From Jimgerdemannia flammicorona (taxonomy: Eukaryota > Mucoromycota > Endogonomycetes > Endogonales > Endogonaceae), in contig RBNI01000017.1 in the NCBI GenBank assembly GCA_003990745.1, positions 1 through 60,286 on the forward strand: DNA of 60,286 bases, in the 5' to 3' direction. Below, piece by piece: positions 1,807 to 50,790 of the stretch. The notes under the pieces were generated by a model, which was not told where the DNA came from, made no database searches, and worked only from the letters and a program-made list of their open reading frames with translations. The first letter of the stretch is position 1; each line of letters begins with the position of its first letter. Position numbers and translations under genes: made by a program.

Positions 1807-2014
1807 TGTTACATAGTGATCACTGAGTCCTTCAAATATGCCAGATTCTCTTCAAGGTGTATCTCTTAGACTAACTCAAGTTTGTTATAAGTAAGTTCTT
1901 ATTGGAGTGCCTTCCCAAGATCTTATAGTCTTCAAACATCTTATCTTTAAACTGTCTTATTATCTCTTAGATTGCTTGCAAGGAAGTGTGTGTATTGCAC
2001 TGAGAGGAACTGAC

Positions 2015-2048
2015 TTTATTTCAGAGGAAATAAGAGGGGATATTTATA
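2015..2048 (-). promoter_or_regulatory. LTR core promoter and poly-A signal
   Basis: On the minus strand TATAAATA (2048-2041) is followed about 25 bp later by AATAAA (2020-2015), a compact promoter plus polyadenylation arrangement expected at the U3/R border. The same pair occurs in the other LTR (TATA box 8474-8467). The transcription start has not been measured; placing R near 2015 is inference from spacing. Confidence 0.55.
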
Positions 2049-2149
2049 CAAAATATAATTCAATAGTTGCTAAGATATAAAGCTAAATATAAATTTCAAT
2101 AACTAAAACTACTAAGTTCCAGGGTCAGTACTGATGGTTGTACAGGTTC

Positions 2150-2345
2150 AGGATGCTGGTATAATTCAGTATCACATCAGAATACTGGTGCTGGAACAAT
2201 TTCATATCACCTCAGAATGCCAGTGCTGGCATTATCCTGTTACATGAGAATACCAGTGCTGGAACAATTTTGTGTCACCTCAGAATGCTAGTGCTGGCAT
2301 TATCCAGTGTTACATGAGAATACCAGTACTGGCATTATCCAGTGT
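2150..2345. repeat. tandem repeat inside the LTR U3
   Basis: About three units of roughly 65-70 bp, each with CCAGTGCTGG-type blocks separated by a CACCTCAGAATGC or TTACATGAGAATAC segment. The array recurs at about 8575-8770 in the partner LTR. It lies between the U3 reading frame and the TATA box, where enhancer repeats sit in many LTRs; that role is inference. Confidence 0.7.
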
Positions 2346-2355
2346 AATAAAGAAC

Positions 2356-3165
2356 TTAGAGCTGAAAGTTCAGGACCATGGGGACTTCATCATCATCATC
2401 ATCATCACTGAAGGAGATGAGATCTGCAAATTTGTCGTTTTCATGTGCTTCAATGTCATGTGGGATGACATCATCACTAATGACATCATCACATTCAGCA
2501 GCAGAGAAATCAGGAATAAGATCTGGAGCTCTCCAGTCTATGAGGTTCTCTTCCACAAAATAGGGGACAAATGTGGGGTCTTGGAGAGATCTAACCCAGA
2601 TGCTTGGGCCTTGGAATACTGAGATCAACCCTTGCAGGAATTGGTCTGGGTTGTCTTGGAGGATGGAGTGCCAGAAGTCTTCTACTTCATCACTATTGAG
2701 AGTGATAGTGAACTGGGCTTCTGTAGCTACCCTGGCTTCTAGTGCATTGATACAATGGGATGATAGGTCTCTGAAATCTGAGACTCTAACATACTCCAAG
2801 TTGGGGATCAACTATGGTATATGCCTGAAGATCTGATAGATCTTCTTAGCTGTTCTTGTTTCACGTATATCCATAGGAGTGGCATCTTGAAGCTCTTGAG
2901 TGCTGGCCTGTGGGAACTCCCAGCAGAGGAGGTTTTCTATTTCATACTCCTGCCACATTTGGAGGTATTTGGTAGCAATGGTGATCCTTGTTTCCATTTT
3001 ACGGCAGTAGAGGATAAAGTGATAGGGGTCTGCAGTACCAAGATTGACACTAGGAGTCCTTCTTGAGTGGGTCCTCATGGCTCTTCTGATATCTTGGAAC
3101 ATTCTTTCTTCAACTGAGATATCTTGGTGGTTCCTTGACCTTGAGGTTTGGTGGGCAGCAGGCAT
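2356..3165 (-). pseudogene. LTR-internal reading frame (U3 ORF), unknown protein, copy in the 3' LTR
   Basis: An ATG at 3163-3165 opens a frame ending at TAA 2356-2358. It is 269 codons long if one TAG at 2812-2814 is ignored; the partner LTR has TGG (Trp) there, so the stop is a G to A change. The N-terminal third is basic (RRAMRTHSRR), the middle is neutral with many aromatic residues (MWQEYEIENLL, DFWHSILQDNPDQFL), and the C-terminal part is acidic and ends with six Asp before a short hydrophobic tail. No family is recognised. There is no obvious signal peptide or long membrane segment. It lies wholly in U3 on the element's coding strand, so in this copy it would be the last frame of a genomic transcript. 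See the homologous frames at 8784-9593, 37401-38110 and 44780-45420. Confidence 0.6.
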
Positions 3166-3407
3166 TTCATTTGTGGTAAGTCTTTAAGCTATTTTGGGAT
3201 TGGTGGTTCTTGTTAGTTACTGCTACTATAGTTCCTTGATCCTTCTTTTATATTCTTCAGGATGCTTATACTGTGGTCACAATGACTCACAGTTGTTCAT
3301 CATTACTCATCCCATATGCCATATGATCTTCTTGTGTTCCAATCTGGTGGCTTGCAAGGAAAGGCTGTCTCTTGTGCTGATGTCATCATTCTGGGGTCAC
3401 TGTTACA

Positions 3408-3744: not shown

Positions 3745-5391
3745 ATGAGTGATCATCATGTTTTACTTCTTTTGTATAGGTTTGTGGTACTTCTTGAGTC
3801 TGTTCCTGTGTACTGTAGTAGGCAGTATGGTCCCTGAGATTTTTCTAAGCCAGAAGGTGGTTCCCTTGATATCTTACACATAGAAGGGTCCTTCCCATTT
3901 GGGCTCCAGTTTTCACAACCATGAGGCTTCTACTATATTTTGATACAGAAGAACCTTTTCTCTGATTCAGATGGATTCTAGGGCCTTGTGATTCTTTTCC
4001 ACATTCTTCCTTGTCAGTGCTTGTGACTTGGTGATGTAATCTTCAGTCTTCTTCCTGATTTGGTGTAGTCTCCAGATTTCTGCATCAACCTGTCTCCAAG
4101 TTAGGTCTAGATTTGTAGCTGAGGTTCCATCAGGATCTTCTTTTCTGAAGAGCAGCTCTCTTGGGGTAAAGTGTGTGCTCTGTGACCATATGTCTCATAG
4201 GGCAGAGAGGGGGGTTGGGAGATAATTATCCCAATTTTCATATGTCTCTGAGATCTCCACTAGGATGTTCTTGAGGGTCTTGTTGGTTCTCTCTGTCTGT
4301 CCATTTCCTTGAGAGTGGTACGCAGTGGTCTTGTTGTGCTGGATCTTATATTTCTGACACATTATCTCATGAAATCTATTGACAAATTCTGTTCTGCAGT
4401 CTGTTGTGATTTGCTTTGTTGTCTTGTAGTGGAGATGATTTCTCAGTGCAGGAAGTCGGCTATAGAGAGGGCATTGGTTTCTTGTAATGCTCCTGCCTCT
4501 ATCCATTTGGTGAAGAGGTCTACAATAACTATAATATAGCATTTTCTGATAGTGTTACTATTAGTGGTCCAATGATATCCATTGTGATGTGGTAGAAGGG
4601 GATAGGCTCAATTTTTGATGACTCAGATGCCTGGTCTTGCTGATCTTATTTCTGTTTTTGGCACTTATCACACCCTTTGACAAATTGGTGTAGGTCTTCT
4701 TCTATCTTGGGCCACCATATGGTTCTTCTTACCTTGTCGTATGTATTGGTTCCTCCAAAGTGTCCTTGCTCATGTACTTCCTTCATTACTTGATACTTCT
4801 TGTGTTCGGGTATTACTAGCTTTCCTCCTTTTCTAAGTGTAGTGTTGTCTAGTTCAAACTATTTCTAAGTCCAGTCGATGATGTTGATTGTCCAGGGTTC
4901 GAGGTGGTTAGGCATCTTCCACTGCCCAAGATAGCTGATTAATCCATAGTATAGCTCCTTATTCATGTTAAATAGTCTTGATGGGGGTGTTTCGGAGTAT
5001 CCTTGAGAGTGCATCAGCATTGGTGTTGGTCTTTCCTGAGTAGTGCTTGACAGTACAGTCATACTCTTGTAGCCTGTAGATCTATCTGGCATATATTTCT
5101 TTGGGGTTCAGAGTGTGGAATAGCCAGGCAAGAGCAGAGTGGTCTGTTTGAATGGTGAAGTGTTTCCTGGCTAGGTAGTAGTGGAACTTGTCTACTGCCT
5201 AAACTACTGCTAAGTATTCGAGCTTGCATGACTCATGGTTCTGTTCTGCTCCCTGGGTACCTCAGCTTGCATAGGAGATGACATATTCATGTCCATCTTT
5301 CTTCTGAGCTAGGACTGCTCCAAGTCCTATAGCACTTATGTCTGTCTGCAGGATGAATTCTAGGTTCCAGTCTGGTCTTCTGAGGATAGGT
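3745..5391 (-). pseudogene. RNase H and integrase part of Pol, copy 1
   Basis: After the RT deletion the coding strand resumes with RNase H (LEFILQTDISAIGLGAVLAQ near 5350, then YLARKHFTIQTDHSALAW near 5150). An integrase zinc-binding region follows at about 4780-4640 (HEQGHFGGTNTYDK ... CDKCQKQK). The catalytic core ITTDCRTEFVNRF ... AYHSQGNGQTERTNKTLK (4400-4230) has the second Asp and the Glu of the DDE triad. A C-terminal tail without a visible chromodomain runs to about 3745. Several frames and stops are needed to read it. Confidence 0.82.
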
Positions 5392-6349
5392 GCTTGGTAT
5401 CACCAGTGTCAACTTCGTGGTAGTACTTGGGTTCTTGATTGTGGATATCCCTGAAGTCTGTAGCAAGTACTCCTTCATTCTGGTGCAAGATCTTGAGAAG
5501 TTGTTCCTCTAGGGGAAAGTTTTCTCCAATGGTATATATGTGTTTGTTCTGGTCCTTGTCTTTCTTGTACTTGAGTTTGGTAATCTTGGTAGCAGCATAG
5601 GCTCCTCTTCCAGTAGATCCAAAGCCTTGTTCTTCTCTCTTGGTCTTGATAAGTTTGATGGCTTCAATGATCTTAGGCTTCTTGATTTCGTGGATCAGCA
5701 TCTGGCCGATCCTATCATGCTTCTTGACTTCGAAAGGGGTGGTGTGGTTGTGATTTCTGACTATGAGAAAGATCTCACCAGTGTTATCAGGGTCAATTAC
5801 TCCTCCTTCAACTGAGATTTCGCTTTTGGCCAGACTGCTCCTGGTCTTGATAATTCTGGCATGGTTCTCTGATAGCTTGACTCCAATTCCAGTGACAAGT
5901 AGGGTGGTGGTTTGTGGTTTGAGGGTAGCATCTTGAATGCTGGCAAGGTCTATTCCTATAGCTCCTTCAGTCTTGTATTCTGGGATCTTGGCTTCAGGGT
6001 GAAACTTCTTGACCTTGAGGGTGATGTCTGATTCTTGTTCCTCCTCTTCATCACTGTCAGCTTGAAGCTCTGGGGGCTGGTCATCTTCTTTGGCTTTCCT
6101 TTTTGCTTCAGTGGCTTCTTGCTTGTGTTTCTGTTGGCAGATTTTCCTGACTTCACTGATACAGGACCAGCAGTCATTCAGGTGTTCAGAGCAGTACATC
6201 CTAGTACTATGGGGGCATCTTTCTTGAGAGGCATAGCCATCAATGATCTTATTGTACCACTGCTTATCTGTGAGCTTGGGTGTCTTGTTCTTGTTCTTGT
6301 TCACCAAGTGCATGAAGACCTCTGTGTCTTCTTCATCTCCTTCCTCCAT
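5360..6349 (-). CDS. dUTPase domain segment of the gypsy polyprotein (open for 329 codons)
   Basis: This is the longest open frame in any of the elements. Residues about 1-100 are a linker with a His/Cys-containing patch (CPHSTRMYCSEHLNDCWSC) that may bind metal, then a Glu/Lys-rich stretch. Residues about 125-260 carry the trimeric dUTPase motifs in order: GAIGIDLAS (motif 1), KTRSSLAKSEI (motif 2), GGVIDPDNTGEI (motif 3, catalytic Asp present but the usual Tyr is Asn), KHDRIGQMLIH (motif 4) and EEQGFGSTGRG (motif 5). dUTPase hydrolyses dUTP to dUMP and so limits uracil in newly made cDNA. Next comes the start of RT (ENFPLEEQLLKILHQNEGVLATDF), which stops abruptly at the deletion junction 5392-5397. 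It is part of a polyprotein, not a separate gene; the ATG at 6347-6349 is internal. Confidence 0.85.
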   Translation of the reverse strand: MEEGDEEDTEVFMHLVNKNKNKTPKLTDKQWYNKIIDGYASQERCPHSTRMYCSEHLNDCWSCISEVRKICQQKHKQEATEAKRKAKEDDQPPELQADSDEEEEQESDITLKVKKFHPEAKIPEYKTEGAIGIDLASIQDATLKPQTTTLLVTGIGVKLSENHARIIKTRSSLAKSEISVEGGVIDPDNTGEIFLIVRNHNHTTPFEVKKHDRIGQMLIHEIKKPKIIEAIKLIKTKREEQGFGSTGRGAYAATKITKLKYKKDKDQNKHIYTIGENFPLEEQLLKILHQNEGVLATDFRDIHNQEPKYYHEVDTGDTKHLSSEDQTGT

Positions 6350-6385
6350 GTCTGATAGAACTCCTTTGTAGACATTGATAGAGAC

Positions 6386-6853
6386 TCATACCTTTCTTCC
6401 TCTATAGTTGATCTGCATCTTCTGGGCATTGAGGTCAATGATGACCTTGGCCTTGTGAAGCCATTGGTTGCCAATGAGGATGTCATAGTTGGTGGTACTT
6501 ATAACAATCATATCTACTAGGATGGTATCTCCTTCTATCTTGATGGGGACTTCTCGGATTTTGCCAAGGGAGATAGCTTGTATACCATCTGCTGTAACAT
6601 AGACCATCTTGGTGGACTCTTCAATGTCCCAGCCTAGGCAGTCAATTGCCTTCTTACTCATGAGGCATCCTCCAGCACCGGTATCAATGATGGCATCAAA
6701 GATACAGTCTTCGATCTGACATGGGGTATAGGCTGAAATCTTGCGCTGGTCTTTGGATTCTTCACCTGAGTTCTCAGATTCTTTCTGTGCATTGTGAGCT
6801 TCTACAATCTTGTACTCTTGATTCTTGGCAGTAGTTGTAAGTCCTACTCTCAA
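6386..6853 (-). pseudogene. retroviral-type aspartic protease domain, copy 1
   Basis: This open segment of 155 codons shows the catalytic triad and flap region of pepsin-like retroelement proteases: CIFDAIIDTGAGGCLMS (catalytic Asp in DTGA), a central VTADGIQAISLG, and NYDILIGNQWLHK near the end, the usual I-L-G-x-x-W/F block. It would cut the Gag-Pol polyprotein. It is joined in frame to Gag upstream and to the dUTPase segment downstream once the TGA near 6386 is read as the Gln seen in the copy at 40640. Confidence 0.88.
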
Positions 6854-6964
6854 CTGCTGTCTGAAGGCAGGGACTTCAGCTAGTTGTCTAAAAGTAGCAT
6901 TGACCTTCTGTTCCTTGAGGTCCTTGTAGATATAATACTGATGGATCTTGGTCTTGCGCAGCTT

Positions 6965-8113
6965 CTATTCCTTCTTGCTTTCGCTTTCTTCTGAAACTGG
7001 AGTAGTGCCTTCAATAATTTGGCAGGCAGCTTCATCTAACTCTATGTCTTGATCAATCTCCTCAGATTGGGTCTTGCTTTGAATAGTGACAGCTGGGGTC
7101 TTCTTTGGTCTTCCAACTAGCTTACTGTTGCTCTTTTTGTCATAGAGCTTGGGCTGGGTTCTGGTACCTTCAGTAGCAGGGTAGAATTCAAGCTCCTCAT
7201 AGTATTCTTCATCATCAGTGTCACTAATCTCCTCGATGACTACTGCATTTGTTTGTTCTCTGGTTCTGCTAGTATTGCTTGGTTGGGCTTTACATCTTGT
7301 TTCAGTCATGCAATTCTTTGCATAATGGCCTTCTTCTCCACATCTGAAGTATGTAATATTGTGTTCTTCTGTAGTGGCTGCAAAACTCTGCACTGGTCTC
7401 CTGTTGGCACTTCGGACTTCTCTAACAACATCACTAAGGTGTGCAGTCATCTTGGCGAACTGCTTGGCAAGTTCTTTCACTGGGTCAGCTTTGGCTGTCT
7501 TGGGGGTAGGTGGGATTGGTTGTCTGTTTACAACTGTGGAAGGTAAGATACTAGTTGGCTTTGATGGCTCTATCTTGATGTCAGTTATTTTCTCCATTGA
7601 GTGTTTGGCTGAGTGTCTGGCAGTCCAATATCTCTATGCAAAGACCACTTTCTGATCAAGGGTCAGTGCAGCAGGGGTAGATCAGATTGCTAGGGCAATT
7701 TCAGGGTGAACTCCTTTGAGGAAGGTTGAATCTGCTATTTGTTCCTTGAGGTGGTCATCATCGCTAGCCAAGACAATCTAGTGGCAGATTTGGGTATAGA
7801 ATGAGTTGGGATCTTCACCAAGTCCCTGGTAGATAGTATTGAGTTGATCCTTGAGAGCTTGCTTAATCTCTTTGGTATAATATGTTGTTCTGAGAAAGAC
7901 CTTCATGTTGGCAAGTTTGGCTGTATCAGCATTAGCAATATTGACTACATTGAACTTATCTCTGGCACGTCCTCTGAGGCTGACTGGTGGAAGAGCCAAT
8001 TGAGCATCCACACTAAGGGCTCATATGGAGGTGAATTGTTCAAAGTCTTCAATGAAGGTCAGGATTGACTCTTCAGTAGTATATCCATAGAATGTGGGGA
8101 GACATATTTCCAT
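6965..8113 (-). pseudogene. Ty3/gypsy Gag, copy 1
   Basis: Start is ATG at 8111-8113 (MEICLPTFYGYTTEES). A capsid-like helical region around 8010-7780 contains VSLRGRARDKF, FLRTTYYTKEIKQAL and LNTIYQGLGEDPNSFYTQI. A nucleocapsid knuckle, YFRCGEEGHYAKNC, lies near 7300; its first Cys is already Tyr, one base from Cys by G to A, so it is a damaged CCHC. Stops at about 8025, 7778 and 7680 correspond to sense codons in the copy at 38910 onward. The terminal TAG near 6965 is CAG in that copy, so Gag ran straight on into protease without a frame change. Confidence 0.85.
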
Positions 8114-8233: not shown

Positions 8234-9835
8234 TGTCATGTAGTGGTCACTGAGTCCTTCAAATATGCCAGATTCTCTTCAAGATATATCTCTTTGACTA
8301 ATTCAAGTTTGTTATAAGCAAGTTCTTATTGGAGTACCTTCCCAAGGTCTTATAGTCCTCAAACTTCTTATCTTTAAACTATCTTGTTATCTCTTAGATT
8401 GCTTGCAAGGAAGTATGTGTATTGCACTGAGAGAAACTAACTTTATTTCAAAGGAAATAAGAGGGGTATTTATACAAAATATAATTCAATGGTTGCTAAG
8501 ATTTAAAGCTAAATATAAATTTCAATAACTAAAACTACTAAGTTCCAGGGTTGGCACTGATGGTTGTACAGATTCAGGATGCTGGTATAATTCAGTGTTA
8601 CATCAGAATACTAGTGCTGGAACAATTTTGCATCACCTCAGAATGTCAGTGCTGGCATTTTCCAGTATTACATGGGAATACCAGTGCTGGAACAATTTCG
8701 CATCACCTCAGAATGCCAGTGCTGGCATTATCTAGTGTTACATGAGAATACCAGTACTGGCATTATTCAGTATAACAAAGAACTTAGAGCAGGAAGTTCA
8801 GGACCATGGGGGCTTCATCATCATCATCATCATCACTGAAGGAGATGAGATCTGTGAATTCATCATTTTTGTTTACTTCAATGTCATGTGGGATGACGTC
8901 ATCACCAATGACATTATCACATTTGGTGGCGGGGAAATCAGGAACAAGATCTGGAGCTCTCCAGTCTATGAGGTTCTCTTCTACAAAATAGGGGACAAAT
9001 GTGGGGTCTTGGGGAGATCTAACCCAGATGCTTGGGCCTTAGAATACTGAGATCAACCCTTGCAGGAATTGGTCTGGGTTGTCTTGGAGGATGGGGTGCC
9101 AGAAGTCTTCTACTTCATCACTATTGAGGGTGATAGTAGACTGGGCTTCTATAGCCACCCTGGCTTCTAGTGCATTGATATGGCAGGATGACAGGTCTCT
9201 GAAATCTGAGACTCTAACATACTCAAAGTTGGGGATTGACCATGGTGCATGCCTGAAGATCTGATAGATCTTCTTAGCTATCCTTGTTTCACATATATCC
9301 ATGAGAGTAGCATCTTGTAGCTCTTGAGTTCTGGCCTGTGGGAACTCCCGGCAGAGGAGGTTTCCTATTTCATACTCCTGCCACATTTAGAGGCATTTGG
9401 TAGCAATAGTGATCCTTGTTTCCATTTCACAGTGGTAGAGGATAAAGTGATAGGGGTCTGCAGTACCCTGGTTGACACTAGGAGTTCTTCTTGAGCAGGT
9501 CCTCATGGCTCTTCTGATGTCTTAGAACATCCTTTCTTCAACTGAGATACCTTGGTGATTCCTTGACCTTGAGGTTTAGTGGGCAGCAGGAATTTCGTTT
9601 GTGGTAAGTCTTTGAGCTATTTTGAGATTAGTAGTTCTTATTGGTTACTGCTACTGAAGTTCCTTGATCCTTCTTTTATATTCTTCAGAATGCTTGTACT
9701 GTGGTCACAATGACTCACAGTTGGTCATCATTGCTCATCCCATATGCTGTATGATCTTCTTGTGTTCCGATTTAGTGGCTTATAAGGAAAGGCTGTCTCC
9801 TGTGCTGATGTCATCATTCTGGGGTCACCATTATA
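8234..9835 (-). repeat. 5' LTR of gypsy copy 1
   Basis: This is the partner of 1807-3407, with the same internal order: reading frame, tandem repeat, TATA box at 8467-8474, then R/U5. It starts TATAATGG where the partner has TGTAACAG, so its terminal dinucleotide is damaged by G to A changes. It ends in ACATGACA next to the primer binding site. Confidence 0.92.
8784..9593 (-). pseudogene. LTR-internal reading frame (U3 ORF), copy in the 5' LTR
   Basis: This is the same frame as at 2356-3165. Its start codon is ATT (9591-9593) instead of ATG. It has stops where the partner has Gln (CAA to TAA near 9387 and near 9037) and ends at TAA 8784-8786. The Trp lost in the 3' LTR is present here (FRHAPWSIPNFEYV). 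Because the nonsense changes differ between the two LTRs, the ancestral frame can be seen to have been open throughout. Confidence 0.55.
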
Positions 9836-18649: not shown

Positions 18650-19140
18650 TATAGGGCCTACACAGCTCGATTTCGAATGGGGTCGGAAGATGCGCCGCAT
18701 TATCATAATAAAAATCCAGTGGCATCCTTGTAGCGACGAGTAGTTGATTGCCAGGGATGAACGCTAATTTTCTGGCTGTAACTAATGGATCATCGGAATT
18801 GATGAAATCTAGGGTTATTTGAGGAGAGACCTGGTGGGCGGTTGGGATATTTTTCTCGATCGCAGCGAAATCGATGTGCTAGTTGGCTTCGTCTGAGGTT
18901 GCAATGACGTTATCGTTAAGTGGCCTAGTTGTTGACGTCGATGGCCTTGTTAGCATCGTTGGTGTCGTTCGCGGTCTGGTTACTCGATGGCTTTGTTGAT
19001 CGCCTCGCTGGCCTTGTTGGTGGTCTGGTAAGCGGCGGTCTCGATAACCTCGTTGCTGGTGTACTTGATCTTGTTATTTGTGTTGTCAATAAGCTTAACT
19101 GTTTCGTCCTCATTTCCTCTTCACCACTGTAAATTTAAAT
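18650..19140 (-). pseudogene. partial duplicate of the repetitive gene at 20424-21718
   Basis: About 490 bp match the block at about 20620-21600 in the same order and orientation: an AAHLPTPFEIELC-type segment (18660-18740), the linker with AAATCTAGGGTT, a few repeat units, then the KQLxxLTTQITRSSTPAT segment (about 19040-19110). Here the repeat region has only about three short units against roughly ten in the other copy. Stops and frameshifts are present. Confidence 0.6.
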
Positions 19141-19179
19141 TGTGTTTTATGGTTGACATCTGTGTAGGCACGTCATGCG

Positions 19180-20420
19180 CTAGTCGTCTAGGAAGTCGTG
19201 TAAGAAAGCCAAGATGAGCTCAAACGTCCTGACCCATGGGCGGTAATCGAGGCCTTCTAAGTCCTCGGTGGCCGCCAGGACGGTGTCACCAAGAAGGTTA
19301 TCGTTGTGCACGTTGCCGCCCATCTCACCCGCTGCGAAAAGGCCGGGGATAGGCTTTCCAGAGATGGAATCGACTCAGACTCGGGGGTGATATCGGCTCC
19401 ACCCTGTGAAGTGGAAGGTGGTTAGGAATAGTAATGTGGCAGTCCAGAAAGAAAATTTGAAATAAAAAAAAAAAGTACCATTGTTTAATGCAACAACGGG
19501 GTTCATAGAAATTGTCCGTTATCTAGATGGAGACATTTTGGAAGACGTCTTGCCCCAGGGATCCTTCTTTATCCCGTCCGATATCATTGTATTCCTTCAA
19601 CATCTTTTCGAGCTTCTTAGGGTTATTTCCTATTCTCGAATCTCATCAGCCCCTACCAGTACAAGCTTGTAGTGGCACTCATTCTCGCGGAGCTTTTTCT
19701 TATTCCTCTCGTCTATCACATTGTAGTGGTGACCGAATTCGTCGCAGTACTGGCAACCGTCCCCACCTACGCCGTAGAGCGCCTCTGCGGCAAGAAACTT
19801 CATCTTTGCGCCTGGCTCCTGGGTGAACTTGCACCGCCTCGAGGTCGATTATATTGGCCCCGATCGCCGCGGACATTTTGATGCCGTCGCCTGTGCAGTG
19901 CGCACCACTGGTGGTGAGAGGGGGGGGGGGTTAGTGCGCGGGACAAGCTCCAAAATAAAAACAACTAAAAATAGGTGATGCTAAACGAGAGAGTGTATAC
20001 GTACTGGTTCCTCGGCCCAGGCCTATGTTTCTTTACAACGACTGTTGGGTGAAATCTGTGGCATACTCACAAGTAGCCTTCACAATAGGTCGGGCATCCT
20101 TGAAAACCTGATATGGCTTCCCCGTGACGAACCACTCAAAGTCCACGACATCCTTGCTCGTGTCGATCATGACACCATCAGGGTGCTTCTCAGTCATCTC
20201 CAACGCTTCCATATTCGCGCGTCATTGCCATGCCGGGGAAACTTCTTCTCATGGTGGGTGCATGGGACACAGGCGATAGGTCAAGGCTGAATTTATCCTG
20301 AAGTCACTCGAACTCGACATCAGAAGGCGATTGTTACTTCAGGACCTTTAATGTCTCCAAGCGAAGCAGGTCGCGGGCGGACCAGGTGGGTGGAGTGGAA
20401 GATCTCGAGGAGTCGGCAAT
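19180..20420 (-). pseudogene. fumarate reductase-like flavoprotein (Osm1/FRD type), broken
   Basis: Read downward from 20420 the pieces follow the FAD-dependent fumarate reductase order: LQDKFSLDLSPVSHAPTMRR; AIMEALEMTEKHPD; ARPIVKATCEYATDFTQQSL; GAHCTGDGIKMSAAIGA with IIDLEAVQVHP; KMKFLAAEALYGVGG; NPKKLEKMLKEYNDIGRDK; GGADITPES; and SGKPIPGLFAAGEMGGNVH. Two candidate GT-AG introns fit the gaps: 20004 to 19908 (donor GTACGTAT) and about 19478 to 19413 (ending TTCACAG). The frame is broken by a shift after VQVHP, a TAG after DEIRE, a shift before NPKKL and a TGA before VDSIS. The expected N-terminal FAD-binding GxGxxG region is not found. The motif series is specific, so the family call is good. 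Confidence 0.8.
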
Positions 20421-20423
20421 GAC

Positions 20424-21718
20424 TTAATTGTTTTGCGTGCGTAACCATTTCAACTCGTGAGTAGTGCATGTCTTTCCCTCATCCTTCCACGGCGCTTCTA
20501 GAGCACACAGCCCGATTTCGTACGGGGTCGGGAGATGCGCCGCATTGTTACGATAAAAATCCAACGACATCCTTGTAGCGGCAATGAGTCGATTAGCAAG
20601 GTTGCGCGTTAGATTTTTTGTCGAGGTCGGGAGATGCGCTGCATTGCTACGAAAATAATCCAGCGGCATCCTTGTAGCGGCATTGAGTAGTTGATTAGAA
20701 AGAATGCGCGCTAGATTTTTGCTGTAACCAATGGATCGTCAAAATTGACAAAATCTAGGGTTGTGAAGAGACCTGGATGTTGGTTGGGATAATGGTCTGG
20801 ATCGCCGTAATATCGATAGGCTTGTTGGCTTCGTCGGTGGTTTCGAGGACCTTGTCGGTAATCTCAATGACCTTGTTGATGTCGTCGATGGCTGTGCGTG
20901 ATCTAGTTATTGGTGGTCTTGACGGCTTTGTTGATGACCTCGCTGGCCTCGTTGGTAATCTGGTTACGATGGCTTCGTTTGGCTACGTTGGTGGTCTGGT
21001 TAGCTGCGGTCTCGTTACCGCGTTGATCTCCTCGCTGACCCCGTTGGTGGTCTAGTTAGCGGCGGTCTCGATGGCTTCGTTGATCACCCCGCTGGCCCTC
21101 GTTTGTGGTTGGTGGTCTGGTTAGCGGCGGGTCTCGTTGGCTTCGTTGATCACCTCTCCTTGGCCACATTTGTGGTCTGGTTAGCGGCGATTTCGATGGC
21201 TTCGTTGGTGGTTTGGTTAGTGGTGATCTTGATGGCTTCGTTGTTCACCTTGTTTCCGTCGTTGGTGGTTTTGTTTTCGACGGTCTCTTTGGTCATCTCG
21301 CTGTCTTCGTTGGAGGTCTGATTAGCGGCGATCTCGATGGCTACGCTGATCACCTCGCTGGCCTCGTTGGTGGTCAGGTTAGCGGCGATCTCGACAGCTT
21401 CGTTGATCATCCCGCTGGCTTCGTTGGTGGTCTGGTTAGCGGCGGTCTTGATAGCTTCGTTGATCACATCACTGGCCTCGTTGGTGTTCTGGATAGCGGC
21501 GGACCCGATGAAATCGTTGCAGGTGTTCTTGGTCTTGTTATTTGTTTTGTCAGCTGGTATAACTGTTTCGTCCTCTTTTCCTCTTCTTTGAAATGCAAAA
21601 ATAATTCTGCAATACGATTCAAAAGCTGGACAGGTGTCCGAGTTGATGGTATTACTTTGGTAAAATCTTCTGGTGGCATTCTCTTGCGAGCTTCAGGGCC
21701 GAAGTTTCGACAGCACAC
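20424..21718 (-). pseudogene. repetitive gene with 20-residue T-N-E-A repeats, unknown function
   Basis: The minus strand reads in three parts. An N-terminal segment (21718-21560) has PEDFTKVIPSTRTPVQLL and a charged helix (LHFKEEEKRTKQLYQLTKQI). A repeat domain (about 21510-20880) has units like TNEASEMINEAVEIAANQT. A C-terminal segment (20669-20424) contains two similar blocks, (M)PLDYFRSNAAHLPT and SLDFYRNNAAHLPTPYEIGL. At least one frameshift separates the parts, so it is entered as a pseudogene, though a spliced gene is possible. It lies directly upstream of the fumarate reductase pseudogene on the same strand, and a partial duplicate lies on that pseudogene's other side. Confidence 0.5.
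20880..21510. repeat. 60-bp minisatellite within the T-N-E-A repeat gene
   Basis: About ten units of near 60 bp built on GGCTTCGTTGATCACCTCGC and CTCGTTGGTGGTCTGGTTAG on the plus strand. The period equals 20 codons, so unit number can change without shifting the frame. Units diverge from each other at several positions, more at the left end. Confidence 0.75.
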
Positions 21719-25640: not shown

Positions 25641-28189
25641 ATTTTCATGTTTTTGAATGATAATAAGCCTTCTTCTTCTCCACAGAAATCTGGACTATCT
25701 CTATGATCTATTATAATACTAAAATGTGATTATATATATATTCTAGATAAGAATCTTGATCTGAGTTCAATTATCTTAATATTATTAATAATAAATAAGT
25801 GGGTTTATTAGAAATCATAAGTCAATAAATGCAGGAATATCCCAGATACTGTGTAGGAAGTATAAATTGTCTAATTGAGATATAAAGCAGACTATGTCTT
25901 AGATACTAGTATGCTCTCAATCTATATTAGCTAGAAAATAATCTATTGTATAAATCTATCATTTAATTATATTCTGTTTTTACTTATATACTTTATATAT
26001 ATATATATTTATTTTTTACTATAGTTCTGATAGTCAATTCCAATATTCTATATTTACCCAATCTCTCTAATATCTCTAATAATTAATATAAGCTAGACTC
26101 TCCTATCTATCTACTCTACAATAATATTCTAATTATAGAATACTTACTTTACTTTCTATAAGATAATTCTACAAAGATAATAATTTTAATACTAATAATA
26201 TCAAAACCTATCTCAGTAATCTATCTAAAGATATACCATCTATATTATGTACTTCTATATACTTTTACTAAAATAGCTAACAAAGCCTCTAATCAATCTA
26301 CTTTTCTAACTCTAGTAGTCAAACTTCTCTTTCAATTTAGCAAACCTTCTTTCTATTAATATATTCATCAAAGATAGAATTATGATATTATAAGAATATA
26401 CTATTGCTCAAGATTATTATTTTGATAATATTATCTCTCTTCTAATTTATATCCAGAATAACTTCTGACTACTACTGTATTCTATATATCTATTAAAGAT
26501 TAAGTCTTAATAATTAAAGTACTATTTTTTTCCTCTAGAGTTATAGTAACTATCTCCTAGTCTCTAACTCTAACTTGTTTCTAAATAAATTGAATCAAAT
26601 TGAAAGTTTAATTTAAATCAAATTGAACATCAATTTGAAATTCTCAGTAACTTATATTATGAGATAATCAGTTTTTTGTTTGAAAGATATATTACTTAAA
26701 ATTTACATATAAATATATAACTGAAATTCACATATAACTAAAATTTACACCTAATTAAAATTTATATATAACTGATATATATTTTTGAAATTCCTATATA
26801 TATATATAACTCTGGTTCGATTCTTGATCTCAGCCATATCTGGTCATAGCAGTAGCTATCTGGTAAGTATTATTATATGACCAATTTTTTAGCAAAAGAT
26901 AGAGATCAATGAATTAAGTTTTTGAAAGATTTTGAGAAGAGTATAATATAGTTTTCCATATTTTCTACAATTGTTATAGCTTGTATAAGATCAATCTTTA
27001 GTTTTTGGGATAGCAGCTTAGATAGCAGCTTGGGTAGTAGCTTGAGTAATAGCTTGGACTTAGGTAGTAGCTTGGGGGGTAGTAGTAACTTCAGTGGCAG
27101 CTTAGACTTGGGTGGTATCTTCAGAGGCCTCAGGAGTAGAGACTTCAGAGACAGTCTGAGGAGTGGCTTCAGATATAGTCCTTGAGATAAATTTTTTGAT
27201 TACTTCTTCAATCTTCTTCTTTTTTTTCTTATATTCATTATCAGTCTTAGTTTCTTCATTATCTAACTAGATGACAATCTTGTTGAAAGTATTGAAAGAT
27301 AATTAATATTGAAAAGTTTTTTTATAAGATAAGGTTATTTTTTGGTTTTTGGTTTTTAGTTTATTTTTTATTATTAAAGCCAGCTTATTTATATATATTT
27401 TATCTATACTTGTTATAATATATATCTAAAGCTCTCAACTTATGCTTTTTTCTTATAGGATTATAGACTTGTAGGCTTTTGTTGCTTATAGAATTATAGG
27501 CTTATACTTGTTATAATATTTGAAGCCCTCTGCTTACACTTATTGCTTACCGAATTGTGGGCTTGCAGACTTTTGTTGCTTGCAGAATTGTAGGCTTATA
27601 CTTGTTATAATATTTAAAACTCATAGTTAATACTTTGCTTATAAGATGGTTGGTTTGCTCTTATTATAATATTCAAAACTTTTGACTTATACTTATTACT
27701 CAAGAGAAGTTCTTGACTTATGCTTGTTATTTACAAGATTGTGAACTTACACTTATTGCAATATTCAAAGCTCTTAACTTATACTTATTACTTATAGAAT
27801 TGTAGACTTATGAGTTTATAAGTATAAGTATTTTAGATATAATAATTAAGTATATATAATATATATCCTTAAGCATTGAATATATTTGAAATTCTATATA
27901 TTATACTATTTATAGTACTTGTTATCTATCACTAGTGCTCCCAGACAGATATAATGATATCTTACTCATCTTATTGAGGTTGGAAATGACAGAAATTATA
28001 TTTGAATATAATAATTAAATATATATTTAGAAATTATATTCAGATATGATATATTCATAAGTTCTAGATCATACTTGTATAATATGATACCCAAGTACTA
28101 TATTTATTTGCTATTTCAAAATTTAACTATATTTGGAGATTTGGAATCAGCTATTGTTATTGAAATACTGGACTAATTGTTATACTATT
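25641..28189. other. AT-rich repeat-derived DNA
   Basis: No complete gene is visible. Around 26580-26660 there are repeated ATTTAAATCAAATTGAA-type words that recur near 46500-46740. At 26690-26790 there is a tandem of about 19 bp based on TATAACTGAAATTCACAT. At 26990-27180 the minus strand reads Thr/Gln/Ala-rich low-complexity protein (ATTQATTQAA-like), followed upstream by a Lys-rich patch. At 27410-27850 a roughly 70-bp unit containing AGGCTTATACTTGTTATAAT is repeated five or more times. Confidence 0.5.
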
Positions 28190-29228
28190 AAATATATATA
28201 TATATTCCCAAATTGGTTCTGGATCTAAAGCACCTCTTTTAGCTATTATAAGATCTTTACTACTTAAAAAATCTTTCTCAATTAAAGCATTTATTACTGG
28301 AATAACATGCCATTTTTATTAGATTTGAGAAATCTTTACTATGGCCCTAATATTTCCAATCAATTAAATCAATTAGATACTTAAATAATATTTTGAATTG
28401 ACCTAATTTAAATATGAATTCCCAACTTACTTGCTATTAAGATAATATATCAACTCTTGCTTAAAATTTAACAGTTTTACTTTTCAAATAAAATCTATCT
28501 TCTGCTTAAGATTTGTTATTTATTTTTGTCTTTTATTGAATATATATTCATATAGTATAGCATTGATATCATCTTCTACTTCTTTATAATCTTCAGAACT
28601 TGTTTGATTAATTAGTCTAAATAGAGGAGTATAGTTTTAATTAAAAACTATATAAAGTTTTTCTTTGGCCTCTTTAATCCAAATATCTTTCCAATTATAT
28701 AACAAATAATATTCTAGCTTAAACCTAAAATTGAGTACTGGTTTTTGTTAAAATGAATTAATAGTGGCCAATAAGTAAATTTTGAAATAGATTTATACTA
28801 TTTCTAATACTAAGTAAATTTCAAAATAGATTTATGCTGTCTCTGATATGATATGAATTTCAAAATATTTACTTACCAGTATTAATATAATAAATTAGAG
28901 TATTTGTTATTAAATAATATATTTTTAACTTAGTAATAACTATAGTTAGTATCAGATAAATGATATTCAGCTCTTCTATATGCTTTTAAAGTTCTTGATT
29001 ATTATTCTCCATTATATCTATTAAAAAGTTATAAATAGAAATAGTAGAATAAATTGTTTGATATTTATAATAATCTATAATATCTATTACTTATAAGTAC
29101 TTTAATATCTTTTAGCATTTACTCAGTATAGTCTTCTATAGTATATTTTTACAAATCTTTATCAGCTATAACTATTGAGATTAAAGACTTTTAACAAATT
29201 AATTTATTAGATTATTTGAGGAAAAAAC

Positions 29229-29268
<40 letters not shown>

Positions 29269-29650
29269 CAGCTTATCTTTGATAATTCTAAAACCTGTTC
29301 AACTATCAAATATGTTCCAAAATAAGTAATTTTGAATTGTAGACTCTAAAAGCTTTATATTATATAGTAAATTTCTATCAATATTATATATAATAATAAC
29401 TGAATCTTGATAATAATTAATTAGAGCTTTGAAAGAATAATCTTTACTCACATCATTATCAGTTTTTAAATTAACCAAAAAGACTTAAACAGCCAAATTA
29501 ATAATATGAGCTAGGCAGTATATATATTATATTCACTAATAGTTGAGACTAGTATAAATGAACTCTATTCTGATTATTTAAAAAATTATAGTATTGTTAG
29601 ATATAGTGTCCATTGTTATAGCTAATATCTAGAGTAAAAAATCAATAATT
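28190..29650 (-). pseudogene. hAT-type DNA transposase relic
   Basis: Three blocks in the right order on the minus strand mark a hAT transposase: CLAHIINLAV near 29490 (the R-C-x-A-H-x-x-N-L conserved block), NFRFKLEYYLLYNWKDIWI near 28720 (the D-P-R-x-K-x-x-Y-x-x-x-x-W block), and FLSSKDLIIAKRGALDPEPI near 28230 (the C-terminal dimerisation block, normally S-x-x-R-V-F-S-x-x-x-D-L-I-x-x-K-R). Many stops lie between. The N-terminal part is missing or lies beyond the repeats at 29660-30000. Terminal inverted repeats were not found. Confidence 0.7.
29232..29269. repeat. (TA)n microsatellite
   Basis: An uninterrupted TA run of 38 bp inside the hAT relic. Confidence 0.95.
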
Positions 29651-29659
29651 TGAATATAA

Positions 29660-30000
29660 GATATCTTTTTTCAAAAACATAATCTTTTTTTCTTTTTTGA
29701 GAACTCAATCTTTTGATCTTTTTTGAAAACTCAACTATTTTCAAAACATGCCCTTTTTTTTGAAATTCCAACCTTTTATAAAAATTGAATCTTTTTTAAA
29801 AACCCAACTTTTTTCAAAAACCCAACCTTTTTCAAAAACCCAACCTTTTTCAAAAATCTAACCTTTTTCAAAATCTGACTTTTTTTTTGAAAATTCAATC
29901 TTTTTTGAAAATCTCACCTATTTTGAAAATCAAACCTTTTTTAAAAACTCAAAAACCTGACCTTTTTCAAAAACTCAATCTTTTTAAAATATGATCTTTT
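29660..30000. repeat. tandem CCAACCTTTTTCAAAAAC array
   Basis: About 15 diverged units of near 18 bp, best conserved at 29800-29870. Left units have more T. It sits between the hAT relic and the LTR that begins at 30023. No coding role is seen. Confidence 0.75.
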
Positions 30001-30022: not shown

Positions 30023-30441
30023 TGTAACATAGCAGATGCTTAATCTTAAAAGTATGTCATATTTCTATAGCTTGAAAACTTGATCTTCTTTAACTCTGCA
30101 GAGTCCTCAGGATGTAGGGGTGGGTGAGTTCAATATGTATCTATCTGCAGGCTTATTAGTTCCTTTACTTTTCTCTTTGCTTTGAACTATTTTTATCTGA
30201 GGTTTATTCACTCTAAGATACTTGATTATTTATACAAGTTTGCTAGCTATAAGGTGGCTAAGTTATAACTATATTGTGAGTCACTTTTCACAAGTATGAA
30301 TTCTGAACATTTGTGAAAACTTCACATTTGTGAAATGACTGCTATTTATGAGACTATACTATAATAGGAATTGGGTTTAGACACTATAATCAAATGTCTA
30401 ATTTATCTGATTCTTATTCCTAATTTGGATCAACCATCACA
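30023..30441 (-). repeat. 3' LTR of the short-LTR gypsy element
   Basis: 419 bp; reads TGTGATGG ... GTTACA on the minus strand. It matches 36197-36614 from end to end. The outer ~115 bp of its TGTGATGG side also match 660-794. Confidence 0.9.
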
Positions 30442-31249
30442 ACTTCTTCCTGAATAGGTGATTCATCCCTAAAACATCCTGTTTATTTGAACTCCCAAGC
30501 TTCTACAATTTGTATCTCCTTGTACTGTGCAATTTGTGTCATTACCTTCTCCCAATGATATCTCTTGATGTGTCTGAAGTCTTCTGGAGCCATTTCTTAG
30601 AAATGGGCTAGGGCTGCCTTATTATCTTTGAACAGCTTATTAACTTATTTGGCAATTGTAATCCTAAGGTAGGAGAGCTGGCACTCTCTAATCCAGTCTT
30701 CTTTTCCCATCTCGGGCCATCAATTCAGTAACTGTCCTAACTTGAAGTATTCTTGAAGTTCTGTCTGATTCTTGTAGGTCTTAAAATACAAGATTCATGA
30801 CATATTAGTCTGTACTATACTTTGGATATTGTCAAAAGATTCCTCTATCATGGGTGGCTCAGTAGTATATTATTGTCTTTCTATGGCTTACTGTGCAGCA
30901 CTAGTGTTTTTAAGAGCTGTGGTCAGACTTTGTTGATTAGCCATAATACCTCTTGAGTCAGTTTCAATGAATAGTAGTAGGGATGATTGTGCTTAAGAGT
31001 TTTTGTAGCCAAAAGGTGATCCCTTTTATATCTTACACAAGGTAAGGTTCTTTTCACTTAGGCTCCAGTTTTTATAACCATGAAGCTTCCATCATATTCC
31101 AATACACCAGGACCTTATCTCCTATCTTAATAATCTCCAGAGACTTGTGAAGTTTTTCTGCATTATTCTGCTGTAGTGCCTGCACCTTGGTTATGTAATC
31201 CTCAGCCTTTTTTCTAATTTATTATAGTCTTATATTTCTCTATCCACTC

Positions 31250-36100: not shown

Positions 36101-36196
36101 TGATTTAATTTATATGTTTATTCAGATGGTAGTTGTTCATTGTTAAGCTTGAAAGTGAGAGATTCATCTTAAATCATCAGCCAATGGGCACCAAGT

Positions 36197-36614
36197 TATA
36201 ATGTAGCAGATGCTTAACCTTGGATATATATCAGATTTCTGGATCTTAAAAACTTGATCTTCTTTGACTCCACAGAGTCCTCGGGATATAGAGGTGGGTG
36301 AGTTTGAAGTATATCTGCCTGCAGGCTTACTAGTTCCTTTGCTTTTCTCTTTGCTTTGAACTATTTCGATCTGAGGTTTATTCACTCTAAGATACTGGGT
36401 TATTTATACAAGTTTTCTAGCTATAAGGTGGCTAATTATAACTATGTTGTGAGTCACTTTTCACAAGTGTGAATTCTAGACATTTGTGAAAACTTCATGT
36501 TTGTGAAATGATAGCTATTTATGAGGCTATACTATAATGGGAATTGGGTTTAGACATTATGATCAAATGTCTAATTCCCCTGATTCTTGTTCCTAATTTA
36601 GCTAAACCATCACA
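36197..36614 (-). repeat. 5' LTR of the short-LTR gypsy element
   Basis: 418 bp, partner of 30023-30441, beginning TGTGATGG on the minus strand and ending ATTATA where the other LTR has GTTACA (two C to T type changes). The primer binding site follows after 3 bp. Confidence 0.9.
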
Positions 36615-37158: not shown

Positions 37159-38788
37159 TTTAATAGTAATCTTAGAATGGTGACATCATCACAGAAGCCA
37201 TTCTTTCCTTACAAGTCACCAGATTGGAGTACAAAAAGATCATATGATATGACTTACTCAGGCTACAAGATGAACAATAATGATAAATAATAAGTCATAA
37301 TGAATATCTTAAGGAATATAAGAAGGACCAAGAAACCACAGCAGTAGCAACTCAAACAAGACTTACAAAATTCTGAAATAGTTCATAAGACTCACTATAA
37401 ACAAATACTTACTACTCACAAAACCTCAAGATCTGGGAATCACCAAGGATTTTCAGTCTAAGAAAGAATATACTAAGTCATCAAAAGAGTCATGAGGACC
37501 AGCATCAGAAGGATTTCTAGCCTTAACTTGGATACTAGTATCTCTTACCACTTTATCCTCTATAGCTATGAAATGGAGATAAGAATTACTACTACTATTG
37601 AATATCTCTAGATATGGCAGAAATATGAAATAGGAAACCTCCTCTACCAAAAATTCCCTCAGGCCAGTCTCCAGGGGATTCAAGATATCATCTCTATAGA
37701 TATATAAGAATTGAGAGTCATCAAAAAGATTCTGCAGATCTTCAGACATATATCTTAATCAATCCCCAACTTAGAGTATACCAGAGTCTCAGACTTCAAG
37801 GAATTGTCAGCCTACCATATTGATATACTAGAGGCCATAGTGGTCACAGAAGCCCAATCCACTATCACTCTTAAAAGTAATAAAATAGAAGAGTTCTGGA
37901 ATCCCATCCTCCAGAATAATCTAGATTAATTCCTGCAAGAATTAATTTTAGTGTTCTAAGATCCCAGTATCCAGGTTAGACTCCCTTAAGATCTCATCTT
38001 TATCTTCTACTTTGTAGAGGAAAATGCCATAGATTGGAGAGCCTCTGACCTCTTTGCTCCCACTGCCACTAAATATAATGATGTCATTGCCAATGATGTC
38101 ATCCCACTAATCAATATATATAAAATAGGCAAAATATACAAAATATACAAAATGAACAAGATGCCTATAGAAATTTTTACTAATCTTATTTTCTTCAAAA
38201 ACATCCTATCTCTAACCTCTAGTCTTGATGATAGTGATAAAGATGATGTCTCCAGAATTCTGAACATTCTACTCTAAGTACTTTGTATAACTGTTGAAAT
38301 TATTCTGGCATTCTGATCTTGTGTAACTTTTAGAAATTTTTTCAGCATTCTGATCTTATATAACTAATTACACAGATACTCAAATTTGTACTTACAATCT
38401 GAAGTTTTCTGTTTTCAAATATCTTATTTAGTTATTGGAATCTATATTTAGTTTATAACTTAGCAACTATTGAATTATATTTTGTATAAATATCTCTCTT
38501 ATTATCTTTGAAATAAGGTCAGTATTGAAATACTCAGTATTAAAAAACACTCAAGCATTCAAGTACCCAACTACTTAAGAATTATAGAAGTTCCAGTTCT
38601 CTACTCAATTCTAAGTAAGCAAATCCAAGAGATAACAGAATAGTTTAAAGATAAGAAGTTTGAGGACTATGAGACCTTGGGAAGATACTCTAATAGAACT
38701 TGCTTATAAGAAACTTGTAGTTGATCTAAGTGGTATATCTTGAAGAGAATCTGATGTACTTGGAGAACTTAGTGACCACTGTATGACA
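37159..38788 (+). repeat. 5' LTR of gypsy copy 2
   Basis: Begins TTTAATAG where the first copy has TGTAACAG and ends GTATGACA. It contains a decayed form of the U3 reading frame at about 37401-38110. The primer binding site TGGTATCAATTGGCTGG follows at 38792-38808, two changes away from that of the first copy. Confidence 0.9.
37401..38110 (+). pseudogene. U3 reading frame relic in the 5' LTR of gypsy copy 2
   Basis: The translation follows the frame at 2356-3165 (for example TSRSGNHQ ... SVxER near 37410 and the MW/WQ-YEIGN-type segment near 37610) with numerous stops and small indels. It has no function now, but it shows the frame is part of the family's LTR. Confidence 0.55.
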
Positions 38789-44483: not shown

Positions 44484-46086
44484 TGTAACAGTGATCTTAG
44501 AATGGTAATATTATCACAGCAGACAGTCTTTTCTTACAAGCTACCAGATCAGAGCTTGAAAAGATCATATGGTATGACTCACCTAGGCTATAAGATGAGC
44601 AATGATAACAAACTATGAGTTCTAATAACTACAAGATAGGTATCTCAAGAAATATAAGAAGGACCAAGAAACTACTTCAGAGCAACTCAAACAAGACTCA
44701 CAAAATCCTGAAATAGTTCAAAAGACTCACTATAAACAAATATCAGTTACTTTCCAAACCTTAAGGTCCAGGAACCACATAGAATTCTCAGTCCAAGAAT
44801 GATATTCCAAGACATCAGGAGAGCTATAAGGACCTGTACCAGAAGGATTCCTAGTCTTAACTTAGATACTGGTGTCTCTTACTACTTTATCCTCTACCAC
44901 TATGAAATGGAGACAAGGATCACAACTACTATTAAATATCTCTGGATGAGGCAGGAATATGAAATAGAAAACCTTCTCTATCAGGAATTCCCTCAAGCCA
45001 GTTCCTATAAGATATAAGATGTCATCTCTATAGATATATATAAATTAAGAGTAGCTAAAAAGATCAATTAGATCTTCAGTCATACACCTTGATCAATCTC
45101 TAACATAGAATATACCAGAGTCTCAGACTTTAAGAAATTGTTAGTCTGTCATACCAATGCACTAGAGGCCATAGTGGCCACAAAAGCCCTATCCACTATT
45201 ACTCTTAAAAGTAATGAGGTGGAAGTGTTCTGGAATTCCATTCTTGAGGACTATCTAGATCAATTCCTATAAGGATTAATCTCAGTATTCCAAGGCTCCA
45301 GTATCCAGGTTAGACCCTTTCAAGATCTCACCTTTTCTACTTTATAGAGAAAAATATTATAGATTGAAAAGCCCCTGATCTTCTTGCTCTCACTACTACT
45401 AAATATAATAATATTATTAGTAATAACATTATCTCATTAATAAATATATGAAACATATGAAATAAACAAAATGAACAAGACACTTATAGAAATATTTGCT
45501 GACTTTATTTCCTTTGAAGACTTCCTGTTCCTAATCTCTAGTCTTGATGATAGTGATGAAGATGAAGTCTTCAGAATTCTGAACATTCTGCTCAAAGTTC
45601 TTTATGCAACTATTCTTATATAACTATCAGAAATTATTTCAGCTTTCTGATCTTATATAACTAATTGAACTGAAACTTGAATTTGTACTTACAATCTGAA
45701 GTTTTCTGTATTTAAATGTCTTATTTAGTTATTGAGATTTATATTTAGTTTTATAACTTAGCAACTATTGAATTATATTTTATATAAATACCCCTCTCAT
45801 TTTCTTTGAAATAAAGTCAGTATTCAAACACTCAGTATTAAAAAACACTCCAGCATTCAAGTATCTACCTACTCAAGAAGTACAGAAGGTCCAGTTCTCT
45901 ACTTAATTCTAAGCAAGCAAATCTAAGAGAGAACAGAATAGTTTAAAGATAAGAAGTTTGAAGACTATAAGACCTTAGGAAGGTACTCTAATAGAACTTA
46001 CTTATAAGAAACTTATAGTTGGTCTAAGAGATATACCTTGAAGAGAATCTGATATACTTGGAGAACTTAGTACTCACTATATAACA
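44484..46086 (+). repeat. 3' LTR of gypsy copy 2
   Basis: Begins TGTAACAGTGATC directly after the purine tract AGGAGGAAGA and ends ATATAACA. It contains the U3 reading frame in damaged form from about 44780. Confidence 0.9.
44780..45420 (+). pseudogene. U3 reading frame relic in the 3' LTR of gypsy copy 2
   Basis: An open stretch of 72 codons (44799-45017) reads FQDIRRAIRT ... SLNLDTG ... FILYHYEMETRIT ... QEYEIENLLYQEFPQAS, an almost residue-by-residue match to the frame in the LTR at 1807-3407. After it the homology continues with stops and shifts to about 45420. Confidence 0.6.

Positions 46087-47614: not shown

Positions 47615-47615
<1 letters not shown>
46087..47615. other. AT-rich DNA, no gene recognised
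   Basis: Contains a repeat zone at about 46500-46740 made of words such as AATTCAAATTGAATTAG and their near complements, which could fold back locally. The same words occur near 26580-26660. The rest shows no readable frame. Confidence 0.45.
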
Positions 47616-47660
<45 letters not shown>

Positions 47661-50600: not shown

Positions 50601-50790
50601 ATCAATCTTTATTCCCTACAAATAAGTTATATTCCAATTATCCTCAATAATTAGCTCATAGATACCATTTTACTTTTAGAGCAATCTAGATATCTATTTC
50701 TTTATAGTTTATAGCTTATATTCAATCGATCCTCATCTCAAAACCATTTACTAAATATGTATAAATTCTTTAGAAACCCCACACTATTCT
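47616..50790 (-). mobile_element. decayed non-LTR element with poly-A tail, minus strand
   Basis: A run of 43 T (47616-47658), the complement of a poly-A tail, opens a minus-strand element. Its 3' end (TAGATTAGTTAAAAAAGACTAT) matches the 3' ends near 15390-15420 and 51220-51250. The interior parallels the element at 52005-54664 in layout, including a segment near 49260-49150 corresponding to the RT palm. Stops are dense and CpG is absent. The 5' end is approximate. Confidence 0.65.

Follow-up and report, generated by a model that had tools for sequence, protein, structure and literature searches.

A selected protein-coding gene inside the U3 region of the long terminal repeats of a fungal Ty3/gypsy-type element

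Long terminal repeats (LTRs) are usually seen as regulatory DNA. Lentiviral nef is an accessory frame overlapping the U3 region of the 3' LTR; Nef is myristoylated, lies only partly in U3 and is made from spliced RNA, and myristoylated proteins start with Met-Gly (MG). Mouse mammary tumour virus (MMTV), a virus of vertebrates, has a second U3 promoter for sag, the product of which is a superantigen and a membrane glycoprotein. In foamy virus, an animal retrovirus with env, the Tas/Bel genes have their start 5' of the LTR. Yeast Ty1 p22 is an internally initiated control protein. Both the LTR and the internal promoter of foamy virus are activated by Tas (PMC6950176). Here, we analyse a 60,286-nt stretch of the Jimgerdemannia flammicorona genome (GenBank assembly GCA_003990745.1, contig RBNI01000017.1, positions 1 to 60,286, forward strand; hereafter the window) and describe a selected gene lying wholly inside the U3 of a dUTPase-bearing, Ty3/gypsy-type element, a location that departs from the usual view of LTRs and has its parallels chiefly in a few retroviruses of animals.

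The frame of ~270 codons is found in two long-LTR elements (Table 1). Element 1 (copy 1) lies on the minus strand, and its LTRs of ~1.6 kb align at 91.4% (1814-3400 against 8241-9828), to which TGTAACA-type ends, read by eye, add ~7 nt per side. Element 2 (copy 2; 37.2-46.1 kb, plus strand) belongs to a second LTR family, and the stretches of the two copies are only 73-74% identical, decay included. The frame lies upstream of both the TGTATAAATA TATA box (LTR nt 1351) and AATAAA (nt 1381). Since the TGTATAAATA box is common to an otherwise different short LTR in the window, we take it as the ordinary promoter of these elements, and this places the frame in U3 relative to a predicted rather than observed transcription start.

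A preliminary description of this DNA had reported the same frame in all four LTRs. This holds for copy 1, but copy 2 retains relics only, the second of them frameshifted, and the limits first given for these relics were too short and are corrected in Table 1. No intact copy of the gene is present in the window. As had been noticed, the nonsense codons of copy 1 fall at different places in its two LTRs (one stop against four) and are of the type expected from repeat-induced point mutation: opposite the stops the partner LTR encodes Gln at four places and Trp at one, so C-to-T or G-to-A changes account for every stop. The ancestral frame was accordingly proposed to be open, and copies without internal stop do occur elsewhere in the genome.

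For comparison within families, alignments were built from 40 family 1 LTRs (2 of them in the window, 38 fetched) and 41 family 2 LTRs (2 and 39), the fetched LTRs being best-scoring DNA matches, not a random sample. Nine of the 40 aligned family 1 copies are open to the natural stop, seven of these with the ATG, and 31 are broken; the ATG itself is present in 34 of 40. A protein search of the genome, in which 142 of 4409 first-look candidates were scored, yielded 137 full-length or near-full-length matches, 55 of them without internal stop (counted by hand, query included). Because these 137 are the copies that most resemble an open query, intact ones are over-represented among them, and some overlap with the 40. 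Further U3-gene subfamilies emerged when metagenome relatives of the protein served as queries. In 4 of the 38 fetched family 1 copies (L017, which is truncated, L029, L030, and L045), no internal sequence was found on either side, and 2 of the 38 have no downstream flank. Target-site duplications of L029, L030, and L045 were not established, and the three remain solo-LTR candidates carrying the U3 gene.

Decay is strong in both families. In the LTR sample, transitions per background dinucleotide reach 0.35 at CpG, 0.22 at CpA, 0.10 at CpC, and 0.03 at CpT in family 1, and 0.55 at CpA, 0.41 at CpC, 0.17 at CpG (only 30 CpG counted), and 0.12 at CpT in family 2. The CpG observed/expected ratio is 0.10 in element 1 and 0.01 in element 2.

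One sign of selection comes from insertions and deletions (indels). Shared indels, that is, those at the same place in several copies and thus transmitted when the element transposed, have a length divisible by three inside the frame in 9/9 cases in family 1 and 12/15 in family 2 (21/24), whereas upstream of the frame none does (0/1 and 0/7; 0/8 together; p = 1.6e-5 for inside versus upstream). Among private indels within the frame, the share divisible by three is 6/11 in family 1 and 9/38 in family 2 (15/49; p = 4.4e-6 for shared versus private). These are reference-free counts. A single-reference count gives 20/22 for shared indels inside, 0/6 for shared indels upstream, and 16/53 for private indels inside; it takes the reference's own indels as shared, and the reference-free count is therefore preferred. 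When distinct indels are counted against one copy, those in the tail of the frame are multiples of three in 13/17 cases in family 1 and 17/31 in family 2, and length change in family 1 is mostly confined to the tail (17 distinct events versus 5).

Substitutions between the families were restricted to transversions, because C-to-T decay yields only transitions. Per site, their frequency is 0.062, 0.015, and 0.067 at codon positions 1, 2, and 3 and 0.051 upstream, and they are thus about four times rarer at position 2. The ratio of nonsynonymous to synonymous transversions (dN/dS) is 0.45 in the true frame; the two shifted frames give 0.71 and 4.95, and the upstream sequence gives 1.48, 1.07, and 2.01. 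Within family 1, columns with transversions number 19, 8, and 18 at positions 1, 2, and 3; the copy 1 LTR pair has 1, 2, and 5, too few to serve as a control. A chance frame is rejected on the frame-keeping shared indels and the transversion dN/dS. Judged by these comparisons, the U3 frame is a genuine gene: selection maintains it as the elements transpose, and it decays once a copy is dead. The earlier proposal of an extra protein gene overlapping U3 thus stands: its less mutated members are open (9/40 and 55/137), transmitted indels keep the frame, and both the codon-position bias and the dN/dS it called for are in its favour.

The encoded protein comprises ~270 residues (31-33 kDa in eight open copies measured). 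In all eight, residues 1-45 are basic (isoelectric point 11.2-12.0) and the tail is acidic (4.1), and no membrane segment was found, the highest 19-residue hydropathy being 0.83; a membrane or envelope role is rejected on account of this low value. Among 29 aligned sequences, 36 columns are invariant, all within residues 142-213, although two of the 29 start near residue 139, so that earlier columns could not count. Sequence and profile searches of Pfam and NCBIfam returned nothing at the curated cut-off, and the PDB nothing at E up to 1. Matches to the ATG5 helical bundle (best E 0.0073, 4 of 29 members) and to SRE_fam (E 0.061, one of three proteins) fall below cut-off and were taken as chance. 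In the protein collection, the only relatives are six metagenome proteins with 61-89% identity over the aligning parts. As a control, the element's own dUTPase region retrieved three proteins, one of them close; the relative P0007 contains dUTPase and reverse transcriptase (RT) domains. With only three control matches, coverage of this element lineage in the collection is evidently poor, so that little can be read into the scarcity of relatives. The viral contigs scanned contained no relative. Against 198 stop-to-stop segments (at least 25 residues) of the three window elements, hmmsearch --max gave E 0.63 and blastp E 0.072 at best; a Gag origin was rejected for want of convincing similarity to these segments.

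Upstream of the gene, the TATAAAA of a first TATA box (TATA1) is kept in 39/40 family 1 and 26/41 family 2 LTRs, and TATAA in 36/41 of family 2. Among fetched copies, TATA1 is followed by the TGTATAAATA box (TATA2) in 32/38 of family 1 and 27/39 of family 2 (regular expression; a few at odd distances), and in copies with both boxes AATAA[AG]G occurs past TATA2 in 29/32 and 22/27, respectively. In the displayed rows (14 of family 1, 20 of family 2), indels of 1-2 nt separate the families just 5' of the ATG, so coding seems to begin there; several copies are open further upstream. We propose that the U3 gene would be transcribed from its own TATA box, which lies within the initial 160 nt of the LTR, and that the poly(A) signal close to the U3/R border would terminate the transcript. 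Each LTR, whether 5', 3', or solo, would then act as a small gene cassette with no need for splicing of genomic RNA. From the conservation of these motifs, we consider the arguments for and against this arrangement evenly balanced. A stronger form, in which each LTR would be a complete protein-coding gene, present twice per element and still coding in a solo LTR, with many open genomic copies of a trans-acting regulator, is a real possibility that falls somewhat short of probable.

Between the stop codon of the gene and the gag-pol promoter lies an array of tandem repeats with the dyad CCAGNNCTGG. Across the 40 family 1 LTRs it has 72 sites, with at least one in 38/40 and all past LTR nt 1020; in the 40800 nt before nt 1020 of these family 1 LTRs there is none. 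The basic start and acidic tail of the protein, together with a dyad array before the main promoter, point to a possible regulator of transcription encoded by the element. The soluble U3 protein may work in the nucleus on the element's own transcription, and would act at the dyad repeats. Such a nuclear regulator of its own LTR, Tas-like in layout only, is put forward tentatively and remains open to considerable doubt.

Several points weigh against this view of a selected, self-promoted regulator gene. TATA1 consists of A and T only and is hence spared by C-to-T decay, which makes its persistence weaker evidence. In the first 220 codons, distinct indels counted against one copy are multiples of three in only 1/5 cases in family 1 and 4/24 in family 2; frame-keeping indels are mostly in the tail, and indels of any length are few in this part. 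Near-fixed transversions are distributed 11:2:12 over the codon positions (p = 0.026), a modest signal, the ratio of 0.71 in one shifted frame is not far from that of the true frame, and the pairwise dN/dS comparisons are not mutually independent. No known DNA-binding domain was found by the Pfam, NCBIfam, and PDB searches, and AlphaFold2 models are helix-rich at unusable confidence (mean pLDDT, the predicted local distance difference test score, 32.7 with 12 sequences and 35.7 with 29). The dyads, counted in family 1 alone, could bind a host factor instead. Moreover, the 3'ORF (open reading frame) of snakehead retrovirus, once proposed as a transactivator, was reported dispensable for its promoter in the part of PMC12193657 available, a case that calls for caution in inferring function from position.

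Other readings of the gene have to be set against these points. An accessory protein might be made only from the 3' LTR via spliced or internally initiated RNA, as for nef, with the TATA-like box incidental. The overlap with U3 matches the position of nef, and the frame 5' of the ATG, open in several copies, would suit a spliced leader; yet this upstream frame is not kept between the families in the displayed rows, TATAAAA is kept in most copies, and a branch-point-like CTAAC before the frame occurs, among the displayed rows, only in the window's 3' LTR. A splice acceptor, considered separately, is disfavoured, as it shows no conservation in the 14 family 1 and 20 family 2 rows. We regard expression from the 3' LTR alone as doubtful, though a serious contender. 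The protein might also limit or tune retrotransposition at the level of Gag particles or RNA, like Ty1 p22, and not through transcription. A candidate promoter of its own would suit an independently expressed control protein, and the helix-rich prediction points the same way, at useless confidence, but p22 is a piece of Gag and the U3 protein is not, as the absence of convincing similarity to element segments (blastp E 0.072, hmmsearch --max E 0.63) indicates. Such a role seems unlikely.

That the protein counters host silencing or C-to-T repeat mutation would accord with a family so heavily mutated (CpG observed/expected 0.10 and 0.01) and still so abundant (4409 first-look candidates). However, it matches no known protein family, and the heavy mutation means that any such protection is incomplete; this reading is quite improbable. 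Finally, a passenger, either a captured host gene fragment or a chance frame of no function for the element, could account for the lack of a relative of known function, for the 31/40 broken copies, and for the first-220-codon indels that are mostly not multiples of three. It fails to explain why, in family 1 and family 2 alike, the frame is preserved by transmitted indels, why second codon positions are protected, and how the frame survived although copies 1 and 2 are only 73-74% identical; it is already largely refuted and hardly credible. The best overall explanation combines a selected U3 gene, an own-promoter cassette, and a regulator of the element's own LTR, a combination that we hold as possible rather than probable.

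Element 1 shows the domain order CCHC, protease, dUTPase, RNase H, and integrase zinc-binding domain (Table 1). The RT core is missing: at its expected place, after dUTPase and before the RNase H piece, ~830 nt of element 2 have no counterpart. At this gap, two aligned blocks overlap by 28 nt (5370-5397), which fits a loss by deletion between short repeats. The piece at 4198-4554, where the integrase core is expected, has no Pfam match. A dUTPase-bearing relative with short LTRs (30030-36615) is colinear with the long-LTR elements in its interior, and the sequence just past its 5' LTR is nearly the same, but its LTR (~412 bp) is unrelated to the long LTR except for the TATA stretch. This wholly different LTR looks as if LTRs had been swapped between lineages. 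The relative had been said to lack the frame, and tblastn (E up to 1) indeed places only the four frames of the long LTRs in the window. The short LTR did not arise from the long one by deletion, which makes it plausible that the long-LTR lineage gained the U3 gene and that the short-LTR lineage never lost it.

Table 1. Positions in the window of the U3 gene, the LTRs and domains of element 1, and the candidate control motifs
Feature	Position	Strand	Basis or remark
U3 gene, element 1 3' LTR; 269 codons, ATG to stop, 1 internal stop	2356..3165	-	frame conservation
U3 gene, element 1 5' LTR; 4 internal stops, start codon changed	8784..9593	-	
U3 gene relic, element 2 5' LTR; family 2, many stops	~37405..38277	+	
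U3 gene relic, element 2 3' LTR; frameshifts, start inferred	~44739..45593	+	
Element 1 3' LTR, ~1.6 kb	1807..3407	-	LTR pair alignment and TGTAACA ends read directly
Element 1 5' LTR	8234..9835	-	outermost 7 nt per side set by comparison with 3' LTR
gag part with CCHC zinc knuckle, element 1	6968..7633	-	PF00098
Aspartic protease, element 1	6389..6964	-	PF08284
dUTPase (and RT start, by eye), element 1	5363..6385	-	PF00692, 2.4e-25
RNase H piece, element 1	5265..5399	-	~830 nt present before it in element 2 missing here
Integrase zinc-binding domain, element 1	4649..4858	-	PF17921
TATA1 (AATATAAAAGAAGG), candidate own promoter of U3 gene, ~85 nt before ATG	3241..3254	-	motif conservation
TATA1, element 1 5' LTR	9669..9682	-	same offset as in 3' LTR
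35/68-bp tandem repeats with dyads CCAGNNCTGG, between U3 gene and element promoter	2154..2345	-	
TATA2 (TGTATAAATA), presumed promoter of full-length RNA; common to otherwise unrelated short LTR	2041..2050	-	
AATAAA, candidate poly(A) signal	2015..2020	-	

The remainder of the window is heterogeneous in composition. Blocks at 26000-30000 and 46100-52000 are AT-rich (~20-29% GC per kb) with CpG observed/expected ratios of 0.04 and 0.02, and the ratio is 0.97 in the 16-25 kb block and 0.39 in the 52-60 kb block; read from base composition, this contrast is the compartment pattern left by C-to-T mutation. Tandem duplications occupy 54665-60286 (54665-55333/57952-58624, 55522-56997/58624-60099, and 60105-60256/60135-60286), and the frames tested there have no Pfam match. 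An internally repeated stretch at 18681-21692 weakly matches a Gly/His repeat family, below the cut-off, and a frame at 92-589 has a below-cut-off DUF4219 match (E 3.4e-4) and is possibly, from the association of that family, another retroelement gag. Elsewhere in the genome, a 5.8S rRNA match, divergent by eye, at 2381-2534 of one contig (L118 on C1485) is the only one above cut-off among those scored; six partial sub-threshold matches all lie on one other contig.

Among the closest described elements are fungal dUTPase-bearing Ty3/gypsy elements such as PosPlaTy3-5, which likewise have dUTPase between protease and RT in the text of PMC2864245. That survey names an additional ORF of unknown function; its main text contains neither "in the LTR" nor "within LTR", and a U3 gene there is still possible. 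A limited search of the open-access full-text literature with a few phrases returned no case of a gene lying entirely within U3 in a Ty3/gypsy element, whether fungal or not. Bdelloid rotifer elements share the dUTPase between protease and RT and carry family-specific extra genes of varied origin, but their ORF3 is a third ORF beside gag and pol, and the passages of PMC5408684 available contain no "within the LTR". The brtn gene of Boty/BcGypsy1 in Botrytis is, as described in part of PMC8365987, an extra gene of a fungal gypsy element outside gag-pol; it is antisense, according to the title of a paper cited there, whereas the U3 gene is sense and inside the LTR. Bat endogenous betaretroviruses also have an ORF overlapping U3 without Pfam or BLAST match; they are vertebrate elements, however, and coding was not confirmed by the authors in the sections of PMC3621094 seen.

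The comparison with nef and sag drawn in the preliminary description holds for position but not for the nature of the protein, which is without a membrane segment and starts with MPAA, not MG. Unlike Nef, the U3 protein has this MPAA start and a candidate promoter of its own; it has no Pfam match to Nef and no MG start for myristoylation. MMTV Sag is alike in being a whole extra gene in a long LTR (~1.3 kb) and hence present twice per provirus (PMC3026287, in the passages available), and differs from the U3 protein, which lacks a membrane segment. In the proposed role, which is ours for this locus, the protein would most nearly resemble foamy virus Tas/Bel1, a regulator that the element itself encodes and that is made from RNAs starting in the LTR as well as from RNAs starting internally; there, the bet/bel2 frame adjoins non-coding U3 (both from passages of PMC6950176). 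The Pfam and PDB searches gave no match of the U3 protein to Tas, which was not compared directly. Unlike in foamy virus, the whole gene and its candidate promoter are inside the LTR, so that, if the proposal is true, an element protein may continue to be produced by every LTR, solo LTRs included, and accessory genes of the kind found in complex retroviruses would have arisen as well in LTR retrotransposons for which no envelope gene is seen.
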